DNA from: Streptacidiphilus pinicola | Lineage (GTDB): Bacteria; Actinomycetota; Actinomycetes; Streptomycetales; Streptomycetaceae | NCBI RefSeq assembly: GCF_003258295.1 | Contig: NZ_QKYN01000034.1 | Coordinates: forward strand, 1-64,000 | Direction: 5' to 3' | DNA length: 64,000 nt | Part shown: in pieces, positions 1,645 to 6,789 of the stretch | How positions within the stretch are numbered: the stretch's first letter is position 1 | Layout: each line of letters starts with the position of its first letter | Notes under the pieces: model-generated | Told to the model about the DNA's origin: nothing | What the model saw: only the letters and a program-made list of their open reading frames with translations | The model's database searches: none | Made by a program: the position numbers and the translations under genes

Positions 1645-3636
1645 ATGCGTCCCACCAGGAGGCCCCTGGCGCTGACCGCGGCCCTGCTCTGTGCCGCGCT
1701 CACGGCCGCCGCCGCGCTCCCCGGCGGCGCCGCCGCCGCCGACCGCACCCGCCCGGACCGGGTCCCGCTGCCCGGCTCTGCCCCCGTCTGGACGGCCGCC
1801 CCCGCCGCCGACCAGGGGCTGGTGCCCCGCACGGCGAAGGTCGAGGCCCGCGTCTACCTCGCCGGCCGCGCCCGCCAGGCGCTCGCCGCCGAGGCGAAGG
1901 CCGTCTCCGATCCACGATCCAGCCGGTACCGCAATTTTCTGACGCCCGACCAGATCCGGGCGCGCTTCGCCCCGTCCCGGGCGCAGGTCGCCGCGGTCAC
2001 CTCCTGGCTGACCGGCGCCGGCTTCCGCGTCGTCCAGAGCAACAGCCACTACCTCACCGTCCAGGGCGACGCCCAGGCCGCGTCCCGTGCCTTCGGCGCG
2101 CACCTGCACGCGTACCGGAAGAACGGCCACGTCTACACCGCGCCCGACGGGCTCACCACCATCCCCGCCTCGGTCGCCGACGACGTGCTGGCCGTCACCG
2201 GCCTGGACTCCTCCCCGCACCAGGCCCACCACGGGGAGACCCTGCCCGGCCCTGCCAACGCCTTCGTCAACGCGCCGCCGACCTCCGCGTACTACGGCCA
2301 GCAGGCCGCGAGCACGCTGCCGAAGGCCTACGGCCGGGTGATGCCGTACGTGACCAAGGGCTACACCGGCAAGCAACTGCGCTCCGCCTACGGCGCGACC
2401 GCGACCGGCCTCACCGGCGCCGGCGTCAAGATCGCCGTGGTCGACGCCTACGACTCGCCGACCCTGGCCGGCGACCTGAACCAGTACGCGTCCGCGCACG
2501 GTGACGCGGCCTACAGCGACGGCCAGCTCACCCGCGTCGACGCGGCCACCTGGACCCACACCGCCGCCCCCAGCGCCGCCGCCCCCGACGGCTGCGGCGC
2601 CAGCGGCTGGTACGGCGAGCAGACGCTCGACCTGGAGGCCGTCCACGCCATGGCCCCCGCCGCGAACCTCACCTACGTCGGCGCGGCCTCCTGCGGCGAC
2701 GCCGACCTGATCGACGCGCTCAACAAGGTCAACGACGGGCATCTGGCCGACATCGTCAGCGACAGCTGGGGCGAACCGGAGCTCGCCAGCGACCCCGCGA
2801 TGGACCCGGTCTACGACAAGATCTTCATGACCGGCGCGGTCGAGGGCATCGGCTACTACTTCTCCAGCGGCGACGGCGGCGACGAGAAGGCGGCCACCGG
2901 CCGGACGCAGACCGACATGCCGGCCTCGCTGCCGTGGGTGACCGCGGTCGGCGGCACGGCCCTGGCGGTCGGCGCGAACGACCAGTACCTCTTCGAGACC
3001 GGCTGGGGCACGGACAAGGCTCCGCTGGCGGCTTCCGGCACCTCCTGGTCCACCCTCCCCGGCGCGTTCACCGCCGGCGCGGGCGGCGGCACCAGCTCGC
3101 GCGTCGCCCAGCCCTCGTACCAGAGCTCCGTGGTGCCGGGCACGCTCGCGAACGTCTTCGGCAAGCCGCACCGCGTGGTCCCGGACATCGCGGCCGTCGC
3201 CGACTCCAGCACCGGCTTCCTCGTCGGCCAGACGCAGACCTTCCCCAACGGCAGCGTCGCCTACAGCGAGTACCGCGTCGGCGGCACCAGCCTCGCCGCG
3301 CCGGTGATCGCGGGCATCCAGGCCCTGGCCCAGCAGGAGGCCGGCGGCCCGCTCGGCTTCGCCAACCCGGCCATCTACGGCCGCTACGGCACGCAGGCGC
3401 TGCATGACGTCACGGACTTCCCGTACGGCAAGAAGGTCCAGCTGGCGGTCGTCCGCGTCGACTACCGCAACAACGTCGACGCCACCGCGGGCACGGTCAC
3501 CACGCTGCGCGCCCTCGGCCACGACTCGTCGCTCCACGCGACCCAGGGCTACGACGACGTCACGGGCGTCGGCTCGCCCGCCCCGGGCTACATCCCGTCC
3601 TACGGCCCGAACGGCGGCGCCCTGACGGCCCGCTAG
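1645..3636 (+). CDS. Secreted S53 family (sedolisin/kumamolisin-like) serine-carboxyl peptidase
   Basis: 663 residues. A Sec-type signal (RR, hydrophobic core, Ala-rich region to about residue 32) is followed by a pro-domain of the kumamolisin-activation type (about 40-190). The catalytic domain runs from about 240 to 655. The Glu-Asp-Ser triad is readable: E325 and D329 in GEQTLDLE, and S549 in GGTSLAAP. The oxyanion aspartate is probably D373 in SDSWG. Family members are acid-active endopeptidases that self-process after secretion. The start ATG has a GAGAGAGG-like ribosome site just upstream. The gene stands alone between two terminators. The bases 1455-1644 upstream show no other gene. 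Confidence 0.93.
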   Translation: MRPTRRPLALTAALLCAALTAAAALPGGAAAADRTRPDRVPLPGSAPVWTAAPAADQGLVPRTAKVEARVYLAGRARQALAAEAKAVSDPRSSRYRNFLTPDQIRARFAPSRAQVAAVTSWLTGAGFRVVQSNSHYLTVQGDAQAASRAFGAHLHAYRKNGHVYTAPDGLTTIPASVADDVLAVTGLDSSPHQAHHGETLPGPANAFVNAPPTSAYYGQQAASTLPKAYGRVMPYVTKGYTGKQLRSAYGATATGLTGAGVKIAVVDAYDSPTLAGDLNQYASAHGDAAYSDGQLTRVDAATWTHTAAPSAAAPDGCGASGWYGEQTLDLEAVHAMAPAANLTYVGAASCGDADLIDALNKVNDGHLADIVSDSWGEPELASDPAMDPVYDKIFMTGAVEGIGYYFSSGDGGDEKAATGRTQTDMPASLPWVTAVGGTALAVGANDQYLFETGWGTDKAPLAASGTSWSTLPGAFTAGAGGGTSSRVAQPSYQSSVVPGTLANVFGKPHRVVPDIAAVADSSTGFLVGQTQTFPNGSVAYSEYRVGGTSLAAPVIAGIQALAQQEAGGPLGFANPAIYGRYGTQALHDVTDFPYGKKVQLAVVRVDYRNNVDATAGTVTTLRALGHDSSLHATQGYDDVTGVGSPAPGYIPSYGPNGGALTAR

Positions 3637-3659
3637 GGCCGTTCAGCGGCGCGAGGCTC

Positions 3660-3714
3660 GCTCCCGCAGGCAGTCGCACCTCCCGCCCTCAGGGAGTGCG
3701 ACTCCTGCGGGAGC
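3660..3714 (+). terminator. Long hairpin terminator after the S53 peptidase
   Basis: GCTCCCGCAG (3660-3669) pairs with CTGCGGGAGC (3705-3714). Inside it AGTCGCAC (3672-3679) pairs with GTGCGACT (3696-3703), and CCC/GGG close the loop. About 21 bp are formed with one bulged base. It sits 24 nt after the stop codon and isolates the peptidase from the leuS leader. Confidence 0.8.
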
Positions 3715-3731
3715 CCGGAGTGCCCGCCTGC

Positions 3732-3737
3732 TACCCT
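3732..3737 (+). promoter_or_regulatory. Possible -10 element of the leuS leader transcript
   Basis: TACCCT fits TAnnnT and ends 6 nt before the leader-peptide ATG, so transcription would begin at or next to that ATG (a leaderless message). No convincing -35 hexamer is visible 17-18 nt upstream. Confidence 0.35.
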
Positions 3738-3743
3738 TGCGGC

Positions 3744-3782
3744 ATGCGAACCGCGCGCCTGCTCCTTAGCCGGCCGCGCTGA
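3744..3782 (+). CDS. Putative leuS leader peptide (12 residues, three consecutive Leu codons)
   Basis: This short frame reads [12 protein letters not shown] and stops. It is too short for normal gene finding. Codons 6-8 are CTG CTC CTT, three leucines in a row, in the leader of the leucyl-tRNA synthetase gene. An intrinsic terminator lies 46 nt after its stop codon. A run of codons for the cognate amino acid followed by mutually exclusive hairpins is the hallmark of ribosome-mediated attenuation. Stalling when leucyl-tRNA is scarce would favour read-through into leuS. No ribosome-binding site is obvious, but a possible -10 box ends 6 nt upstream, so the message may be leaderless. Translation is inferred. 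Confidence 0.65.
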
Positions 3783-3860
3783 CACGGACCGGCCTGTTCG
3801 AAGAGACGTTGGCCGGAGTCAGCGTGGCGACCCCTCATGGACGAGGGGTCTTTTCGTTTT
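3773..3860 (+). terminator. Attenuator hairpins and terminator in front of leuS
   Basis: The terminator stem GACCCCTC (3829-3836) and GAGGGGTC (3843-3850) has a 6-nt loop, followed by TTTTCGTTTT (3851-3860), an unusually good T-tract for this genome. Upstream, GCCGCGCTGAC (3773-3783, overlapping the leader stop codon) can pair with GTCAGCGTGGC (3818-3828, directly abutting the terminator) with one G-U pair. Between them CCGGCC (3789-3794) pairs with GGCCGG (3811-3816). The arrangement resembles an attenuator, although I could not identify a strong antiterminator by eye. Confidence 0.7.
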
Positions 3861-3909
3861 CCGGCGCAAAAGCACCCTTCCGAGCTGGCACCCCTGGAGT
3901 CTGAGGACG

Positions 3910-6789
3910 ATGAGCGAGAGCACCTCCGAGGCGGCTGCGGCCGCTCCGTACCGGTACACCCACGCCCTGGCGGCGCAGATCGAGGCCCGTTGGCAGGACC
4001 GTTGGGAGAAGGACGGCGTCTTCGCCGCCCCGAACCCGGTCGGGCCGCTGGCCGAGGCCGGCGACAGCGGCGCAGCCTCTCAGCCGCACGCGTTCATCAT
4101 GGACATGTTTCCGTACCCGTCGGGCGCCGGCCTGCACGTGGGGCACCCGCTGGGGTACATCGCGACCGACGTGTACGCCCGTCACCTGCGGATGACCGGC
4201 CACAACGTGCTGCACACGATGGGCTTCGACGCCTTCGGCCTGCCGGCCGAGCAGTACGCGGTGCAGACCGGCACGCACCCGCGGGTGACCACCGAGGCGA
4301 ACATCGCCAAGTACCGGGAGCAGCTGCGCAGCCTGGGCCTGGGCCACGACCTGCGGCGCTCGATCTCCACGATCGACCCGTCGTACTACAAGTGGACCCA
4401 GTGGATCTTCCTGCAGATCTTCAACTCCTGGTACGACCCGGAGGCGCAGGCCGCCCGCCCGATCACCGAGCTGATCGAGAAGTTCGAGTCCGGCGCGGTG
4501 GCCACCCCGGACGGCCGGGCCTGGTCCGCGCTGACCCCCGCCGAGCGCGACGAGCTGCTGGGCGAGTACCGCCTGGCCTTCGTCAAGCAGGCCCCGGTCA
4601 ACTGGTGCCCGGGTCTGGGCACCGTGCTGGCCAACGAGGAGGTCACCGCCGACGGCCGGTCCGAGCGCGGCAACTTCCCCGTCTTCAAGGCCAATCTGCG
4701 CCAGTGGATGATGCGGATCACCGCCTACGCGGACCGTCTGATCGACGACCTGGACCTGCTGGACTGGCCCGACGCCATCAAGCTGCAGCAGCGCAACTGG
4801 ATCGGCCGCTCCGAGGGCGCCAAGGTCGACTTCAAGGTGCACGGCAGCGAGGGCGACGCCGCCATCACCGTCTTCACCACCCGCCCGGACACCCTGTTCG
4901 GCGCCACCTACATGGTGCTGGCGCCCGAGCACGAGCTGGTCGAGTCGATCGTCCCGGCCGCCTGGCCGTCCACGGATCTGCCCGCCGAGTGGACCGGCGG
5001 CTACGCCACGCCCACCGAGGCCGTGGCCGAGTACCGCCGTCAGGCCGCCGCCAAGTCGGACGTGGAGCGCCAGGCCGACGCCAAGACCAAGACCGGCGTC
5101 TTCACCGGCTCCTACGCGGTCAACCCGGTCAGCGGCGAGCTGGTCCCGGTCTTCATCGCCGACTACGTGCTGATGGGCTACGGCACCGGCGCGATCATGG
5201 CCGTCCCGGCGCACGACAGCCGCGACTTCGCCTTCGCGCGCGCGTTCCGGCTGCCGATGCGTTGCGTCGTCCAGCCGTCCGACGACCGCGGCACCGACCC
5301 GTCGACGTGGGACGACTCGTTCGACTCCTACGACGCCGCCATCGTCAACTCGGCCAACGACTTCGTCTCGCTGGACGGCCTGGGCGTCGTCGACGCCAAG
5401 AAGGCCATCACCGACTGGCTGGCCGCCCAGGGCATCGGCGCGGGCACCGTCAACTACAAGCTGCGCGACTGGCTGTTCAGCCGTCAGCGGTACTGGGGCG
5501 AGCCGTTCCCGATCGTCTACGACGAGGACGGCGTCGCGCACCCGCTGCCCGCCTCGATGCTGCCGGTCGAGCTGCCCGAGATCGAGGACTACTCGCCGCG
5601 CACCTTCGACCCGGACGACGCCGACACCCAGCCCGAGACGCCGCTGTCGCGCGCCGAGGAGTGGGTCAACGTCACCCTGGACCTGGGCGACGGGCCGAAG
5701 CAGTACCGCCGTGAGACCAACACCATGCCCAACTGGGCCGGTTCGTGCTGGTACGAGCTGCGCTACGTGGACCCGGAGGACGACACCGAGGTCGTCAACC
5801 CGGTCAACGAGGCCTACTGGATGGGCCCGACCGAGGTGAAGAAGGCCGGCGGCGCCGACCTGTACGTCGGTGGCGCCGAGCACGCCGTGCTGCACCTGCT
5901 GTACGCGCGCTTCTGGCACAAGGTGCTCTTCGACCTGGGTCACGTCAGCTCCTGCGAGCCGTTCCACAAGCTGTTCAACCAGGGCATGATCCAGGCCTAC
6001 GTCTACCGCGACGAGCGCGGCTTCCCGGTCCCGGCCGCGGAGACCGAGGAGCGCGACGGCGTCTGGTACTTCGAGGGCAAGCCGGTCAGCCGCGAGATCG
6101 GCAAGATCGGCAAGTCGCTGAAGAACGTGGTGGCGCCGGAGGAGGTCACCGGCGAGTACAGCGTGGACACGCTGCGCCTGTACGAGATGGCGATGGGCCC
6201 GCTGGACGTCTCGCGTCCCTGGGACACCCGCGCCGTCGTCGGCTCCTTCCGCTTCCTGCAGCGGCTGTGGCGCACCGTCGTCGACGAGGAGACCGGCGAG
6301 GTCGTCGTCACCGACGAGACGCCGGACGAGGAGACGCTGCGCGCGCTGAACCGGGCGATCGACGGCGTCCGGACCGACATGGCGAACCTGCGCTTCAACA
6401 CGGCGGTCGCCAAGGCCACCGAGCTGAACAACTTCCTGGTCAAGCGGGGCTCCACGCCGCGCGTGGTCGCGGAGCAGGCGGTGCTGCTGGTCGCCCCGCT
6501 GGCCCCGCACATCGCCGAGGAGCTGTGGGAGAAGCTGGGCCACCAGGAGTCGCTGACCCACGCCCAGCTGCCGGAGGCCGACCCGGCCTACCTGGTCGAG
6601 GACTCGGTGACCTGCGTCGTCCAGATCAAGGGCAAGGTCCGCGCCCGCCTGGAGGTGCCGCCGGCCATCGGCGACGCCGAGCTGGAGAAGCTGGCGCTGG
6701 CCGATCCGGCGATCGTGGCCGCGCTGGGCGGGGCCGAGGTGCGCAAGGTGATCGTCCGCGCGCCGAAGCTGGTCAACATCGTCATCTGA
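3910..6789 (+). CDS. leuS: Leucyl-tRNA synthetase
   Basis: 959 residues, full length for the bacterial class Ia enzyme that charges tRNA-Leu in the cytoplasm. The HIGH-type ATP motif is HVGHPLGY from H76. The Zn/CP1 editing region fills roughly residues 230-440. The KMSKS equivalent is KIGKS at 732-736, within [12 protein letters not shown]. The anticodon-binding domain and C-terminal domain follow. The start ATG is preceded by CTGAGGA. It is preceded by a leucine-codon leader and terminator, implying control by leucyl-tRNA supply. A 12-bp hairpin ends the transcript. Confidence 0.98.

Follow-up and report, generated by a model that had tools for sequence, protein, structure and literature searches.

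A leucine leader with an abutting stem and terminator before leuS in Streptacidiphilus pinicola and across a wide range of Actinomycetes

The leucyl-tRNA synthetase gene leuS of Streptacidiphilus pinicola is preceded by a short leucine leader frame, leuL, and by two adjacent RNA hairpins, a stem (stem A) and an intrinsic terminator. In the window, by which we mean the whole 64,000-nucleotide stretch of DNA that was analysed (NZ_QKYN01000034.1, positions 1 to 64,000), and across its homologues, stem A is tied at one end to the leucine codons and at the other to the terminator, and the loop of the stem and the end of the peptide are free. We predict from these sequences, with a probability of roughly two in three, that the leuS leader is a ribosome-dependent attenuator that follows shortage of charged tRNA-Leu. 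The wide range of the leuS leader and the abutting layout of its stem and terminator are new here; among titles and abstract beginnings in the open-access literature, we recognised no other paper that extends the leuS leader past Streptomyces.

The leuS leader of the window and its proposed action

The features of the element are as follows, in order along the window.

3732..3737, + strand: -10-like box TACCCT, read from the sequence, ending 6 nt 5' of the leader ATG
3744..3782, + strand: leuL leader frame of 12 codons, with its ATG at 3744-3746 and its TGA stop codon at 3780-3782
3759..3767, + strand: control codons CTG (3759-3761), CTC (3762-3764) and CTT (3765-3767)
3773..3783, + strand: 5' arm of stem A, GCCGCGCTGAC, spanning the last leader codons, the stop codon and one base
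3818..3828, + strand: 3' arm of stem A, GTCAGCGTGGC, directly meeting the terminator
3829..3860, + strand: intrinsic terminator, with an 8-bp stem GACCCCTC (3829-3836) / GAGGGGTC (3843-3850) and a T-rich tract (3851-3860)
3910..6789, + strand: leuS open reading frame (NCBIfam TIGR00396), leucyl-tRNA synthetase of 959 aa, the gene predicted to be controlled

A sequence-only reading of this DNA had proposed a 12-codon leader with CTG CTC CTT and a terminator with a T-tract at 3829-3860; the first is exact in the sequence, and the second can be read directly, with 49 nt between its end at 3860 and the leuS ATG at 3910. The product of leuS scored 883 bits against TIGR00396 (leuS_bact), for which the cut-off is 548.4. 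Stem A consists of 11 pairs, one of them G-U, and its first base lies 5 nt past the last leucine codon. The same reading had called the stems competing, and this part fell: stem A directly adjoins the terminator, with 0 nt separating the two and no overlap, and a folding test described below was negative in 155 of 166 elements.

The position of TACCCT would imply a leuL transcript that begins at or beside the leader ATG and is therefore leaderless. The earlier proposal of a -10 box placed for such a start was borne out among the homologues, in 167 of 168 of which a TANNNT box ends 6 or 7 nt 5' of the leader start, as against 13 of 3213 random positions; for 108 elements the box had itself helped to pick the start codon. 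The position of the box fits a leaderless leuL, and the leaderless transcript itself is reported in S. lividans only, in the accessible part of PMC8079986. Further upstream, between the leuL promoter and the end of the preceding gene (1645-3636), which gave no NCBIfam match, lies a long inverted repeat (3661-3713) that has no T-run and perhaps signals the 3' end of that gene.

Ribosomes are generally known to initiate on leaderless messages, and we assume a ribosome footprint that reaches to +11 nt. In this strain, we infer, the transcript would begin with the leader ATG, and this leaderless message would be taken up by a 70S ribosome. If Leu-tRNA were ample, the ribosome would pass CTG-CTC-CTT to the stop codon and cover the 5' arm of stem A; with that arm covered, the terminator would form freely and transcription would end at ~3855. 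If Leu-tRNA were scarce, the ribosome would stall on the leucine run, and stem A, 5 nt past the run, could fold once its 3' arm is transcribed. The stem would take no terminator bases and would end at the terminator's first base pair. Between them, stem A and the ribosome halted at its base would leave no room for the terminator to close within the exit channel of the polymerase, which would then read through into leuS. Judging from the spacing, the attenuator probably works by steric exclusion between abutting helices.

The window element is the orthologue of the published Streptomyces leuS element. In the portions of the two reports that are accessible, classical attenuators before leuS were predicted in 2005 for S. 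avermitilis and S. coelicolor (PMC1262725), and in 2021 leuS of S. lividans was reported to be preceded by LeuL2 (MRAVRLLLSEPR), a leader that is itself leaderless and has a hairpin and a run of uridines after it (PMC8079986). Attenuation of leuS, which the sequence-only reading had thought unfamiliar in actinobacteria, had thus already been predicted in Streptomyces. The two share the gene, the position, the 12-codon leader with LLL before S-x-P-R-stop, the hairpin and the terminator with its U-run, and in some relatives the leuS leader is exactly MRAVRLLLSEPR. The published element, described for S. coelicolor, S. avermitilis and S. lividans and termed classical in the accessible text of PMC1262725, differs from the elements described here in their wider range, their fixed abutting geometry and their lack of overlap.

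We rejected a T-box reading of the leuS leader, in which a specifier hairpin or antiterminator matching the Rfam T-box is absent. Rfam at its gathering threshold returned a single tRNA from the whole window, elsewhere than leuL, and a search of 3600-4000 at E up to 5 returned no T-box, with mir-1301 and sR43 far below their gathering scores.

Range of the leader

A leuL leader with stem and terminator precedes leuS in 14/14 genomes searched in the genus. Within the Streptomycetaceae, the leader stands at the main leuS in all 93 genomes examined, which were drawn from 150 family genomes with leuS (the locus L029, at the edge of its contig, is counted) and represent all 17 genera. A second leuS copy in one genome (G099, locus L055) has no leader. 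For the other families of the class, we applied the leader pattern to the 40 leuS loci that matched best, and 16 carried a leader; among the loci without one, several, by reading, begin leuS straight after a -10-like box.

In order to search more widely, we reduced a set of 109 elements to 54 on the basis of similarity and length and built from these a covariance model, whose E-values are rough by the tool's own statement. At E 0.001 the model matched 156 of 394 genomes of the class, its training sequences among them; 40 of the matched genomes belong to the family, and the other 116, out of 354 outside it, fall in 26 further families. Sixty of the outside matches were fetched, loci chosen by a model that already contains the abutting layout. 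In 59, tblastn found leuS just downstream, and the remaining locus ends with its contig. The LeuS matches behind outside leaders form two groups, with ~35-42% and 62-72% identity to the window LeuS; the leader therefore accompanies quite different synthetases.

Several individual loci deserve description. One genome (G341) has two copies of the element (L217 and L218) before leuS genes of different types, with 40.8% and 72.1% identity to that of the window. Searching with the core pattern alone, we found one form of the leader core in 39 stretches, with carriers that include Jiangella, Actinopolymorpha, Kineosporia, Amycolatopsis antarctica, Goodfellowiella and Actinocrinis. The core pattern also occurs in a record titled as a Chloroflexi MAG (L253, 470-493), which may reflect misbinning or transfer. 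In one leuS upstream region (L105, from genome G172 of family f24) the GTG start and the ...CCGCGCTGA end are kept without the leucine run; this is apparently a decayed leader.

Within the own genome of 8.4 Mb, the model at E up to 1 matched the leuS leader (96.2 bits), weakly the leuA leader MRSGLLLLSCRGEGPS (27.8 bits), and nothing else. The leuA leader (L148 1501-1551; C173 match 71538-71636) lies on the same contig beyond the window, ~68 kb from leuL, and like leuL it is a leucine-run leader. The LEU element of leuA has been proposed, in the accessible part of PMC1262725, to form a pseudoknot that reaches the leuA ribosome-binding site. No terminator is seen by eye at the leuA leader of this genome, whereas leuL has one, which sets leuL apart from the LEU element.

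Spacing and covariation of stem A

We parsed 168 elements, 109 found from leuS and 59 from the model, of which 93 belong to the family and 75 to 23 other families. The geometry was counted in 166, leaving out L122 and L186, in which the T rule of the script recognised no terminator; L187, whose locus starts inside the leader, had been removed before counting. Four linker outliers in which the script took another helix or terminator (L011, L012, L220 and L238) were counted as misses. The distance from the end of the last leucine codon to the first pair of stem A was 5 nt in 150/166, and the distance from the 3' end of stem A to the terminator was 0-2 nt in 157/166. Elements found without the model were highly regular (5-nt spacing in 103/108, 0-2 nt abutment in 105/108), those found by the model less so (47/58 and 52/58), and a separate script that anchors the stem on the leader end gave abutment in 104/109. 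The loop of stem A, on the other hand, ranges from 3 to 100 nt, and the stop codon lies anywhere from -25 to +2 nt relative to the stem. Thus the leucine codons, and not the stop codon or the end of the peptide, set the register. An arrest peptide is unlikely; elements that keep the RNA stem can have other residues in place of the C-terminal P-R or lack it altogether (LLLT-stop, LLLTGPHRPSRR).

Stem A is under pairing constraint. Across 54 aligned sequences, 97.1% of cells in the stem are paired, compared with 21-58% when the partner is slid by 1-3 columns. Compensatory change in a conserved stem next to a conserved leucine run, which the sequence-only reading had named as a check, is present: 4 of the 11 pairs changed on both sides, with 14 double-change cells against a mean of 2.7 in shuffled alignments. 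One of five measures, the number of further pair types, was not above the shuffles (9 versus 7.7, with 83 of 500 shuffles reaching 9). In the 150 regularly spaced elements there are 43 distinct arm pairs, among which pairs 4-11 vary (CG to TA, GC to AT, TA to CG or GC), and foot pairs 1-3 are near invariant (42-43 of 43).

These data bear on a reading that we consider rather less likely than not, in which stem A serves only to hold the stalled ribosome close to the terminator, and it is the bulk of the ribosome that blocks the hairpin. That both spacings are fixed while the loop length is free would suit such a tether. For a footprint of +11 nt, as assumed, a ribosome that stalls while the last CTT occupies the A site would mask the lowest ~4 bp of stem A; this weakens abutment by the stem alone, whereas the tether tolerates the loss of the lowest stem pairs. 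However, the three foot pairs are the most invariant of the stem, which suggests that they must be formed.

Folding tests, related leaders and alternatives

In the textbook account, ribosome-mediated attenuation is a choice between hairpins that overlap. Were the leuS leader a classical attenuator of this kind, an alternative pairing that has escaped recognition would sequester a terminator arm upon stalling. We folded the transcript as it stands before the 3' arm of the terminator exists, masking as ribosome-bound the nucleotides from -18 to +11 relative to the A site, and compared a ribosome at the stall with one at the stop codon. In five of eight E. coli leaders (thrL, pheL, pheM, trpL and leuL) stalling raised the pairing of the terminator 5' arm by >0.2; in hisL, ilvL and ivbL pairing did not increase in this way, and for ilvL the choice of terminator seems mistaken. 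In 6/8 E. coli leaders, the strongest helix in the neighbourhood of the terminator overlapped it, by 6-17 nt. Like leuL of the window, the five responding leaders combine a leader peptide of cognate codons with an intrinsic terminator, and pheM likewise precedes a synthetase operon. In contrast to these, the leuS set showed no such response: 11/166 elements rose by >0.2, 42/166 fell by >0.2, and the mean difference was -0.07. Overlap between stem A and the terminator was found in 4/166 elements, by 1-2 nt, and is absent from the window.

Thus, the folding result leaves the classical picture unsupported, and we do not class the element as trp-type. We regard a classical mechanism as unlikely. 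In its favour are the 11 elements that rise upon stalling, the three of eight E. coli attenuators that the test misses, a 3-nt overlap in the C. glutamicum ilvBNC attenuator (accessible part of PMC11857589), and the description of the leuS element as a classical attenuator with an antiterminator hairpin (accessible part of PMC1262725). Two candidate pairings were rejected. A hairpin GGAGUC/GACCCC, considered as a hidden antiterminator, fits the window and, by eye, does not fit other genera. By eye, the leucine run (CUCCUU) might pair with the 3' arm of the terminator or with the ribosome-binding site of leuS, but such pairing is inconsistent between genera.

Under equilibrium folding of the full leader with a ribosome mask, six of the seven leuS elements displayed had a terminator probability of >0.8 whatever the ribosome state, the seventh (L044) ranging from 0.39 to 0.98 with that state. 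E. coli trpL and leuL gave at least 0.98 in every state. The two known attenuators thus behave as the leuS elements do, and equilibrium folding cannot discriminate between them, which is why folding before the 3' arm was used instead.

A closer parallel is found in the "fast" attenuator of C. glutamicum ilvBNC, as described in the accessible part of PMC11857589. There, too, transcription starts beside the leader start codon, CUU is among the control codons, and the hairpins are adjacent. They share a boundary trinucleotide, GCC, and mutations in that region raise expression seven- to eight-fold, which makes the hairpin boundary a plausible control point. Unlike those of ilvBNC, the leuS hairpins share no base in 162/166 elements or in the window, and the controlled gene encodes a tRNA synthetase.

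The ilvB leaders of Streptomyces and other actinomycetes (MRTRILVLGxRVG and relatives) resemble leuL in that a stem drawn from the leader end abuts the terminator. In the own genome, the leader MRTRILVLGGRVG is followed by a stem from the leader end, 1 nt, and then ACCCCTCG...CGAGGGGT with a T-run. We scanned 43 ilvB loci (the 30 best matches of the class search and 13 more from the genus search), requiring an Ile/Leu/Val-rich reading frame and a terminator. With a TANNNT box also required, the scan found nothing in the 43 loci; without the box it parsed 41, and two loci, L318 and L337 (the second ilvB of the own genome), gave no parse. Stem and terminator were separated by -1 to 2 nt in 41/41, the terminator core was mostly CCCCTC/GAGGGG, and the codon before the stem was CTT in 26/41. 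The ilvB leaders differ from leuL in their Ile/Val/Leu control codons, in the biosynthetic gene that follows, and in a looser spacing from the last codon (-2 to 8 nt).

We tentatively propose, at rather less than even odds, that leuS and ilvB share an actinomycete attenuator design in which antitermination comes about by abutment and not by alternative pairing. The stem, joined in leuS by a ribosome that would stall at a constant distance of 5 nt upstream, would exclude closure of the terminator by adjacency. If abutting hairpins suffice, terminators could be controlled without constraint on their sequence, and searches for overlapping stems would miss such attenuators. An abutment model may also bear on puzzling results of codon changes in the Streptomyces ilvB leader. 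In S. coelicolor, mutations in the control codons of that leader left regulation unchanged (accessible part of PMC1262725), which speaks against the attenuator that we predict. This last result would accord with a further reading, which we consider improbable, that leader and terminator are real and do not respond to leucine, acting as a constitutive brake or as a terminator insulated from transcription upstream. Against this, the leucine run, CTT and the register from leucine codons to stem are kept in 23 families outside the Streptomycetaceae, beyond what a plain brake would need. If the leader is the attenuator that we predict, leuL gives a handle on the control of leucyl-tRNA synthetase in a large bacterial class.

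Other leaders were sought in the own genome. At neither of its trpE-like loci was a leader with a double Trp found, nor at the better locus one with two Trp at all. In one trpS copy (L293, reverse complement ~1305-1346), TATGCT precedes a putative leaderless leader, MQLSSCRCWWRSS, and the hairpins after it lack a U-run.

The choice of leucine codons is itself uneven. CTT makes up 20 of 1736 leucine codons in 35 long open reading frames of the window, picked by codon-position GC, and is the last leucine codon of the leader in 157/168 homologues (156 by script, L186 by eye); CTC takes its place in the other 11 (10 by script, L122 by eye). The proposal that this rare codon sharpens the sensing gains support from its conservation, and CTT may well serve in that way. 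In the window leuS, 75 of 76 leucine codons are CTG. Over ~690 codons of leuS from 32 genomes including this one, a count that leaves out L012 (in-frame stop) and L029, CTG accounts for 1521 of 1578 leucine codons. The leuS gene may thus be spared from the codons that its own sensor uses.
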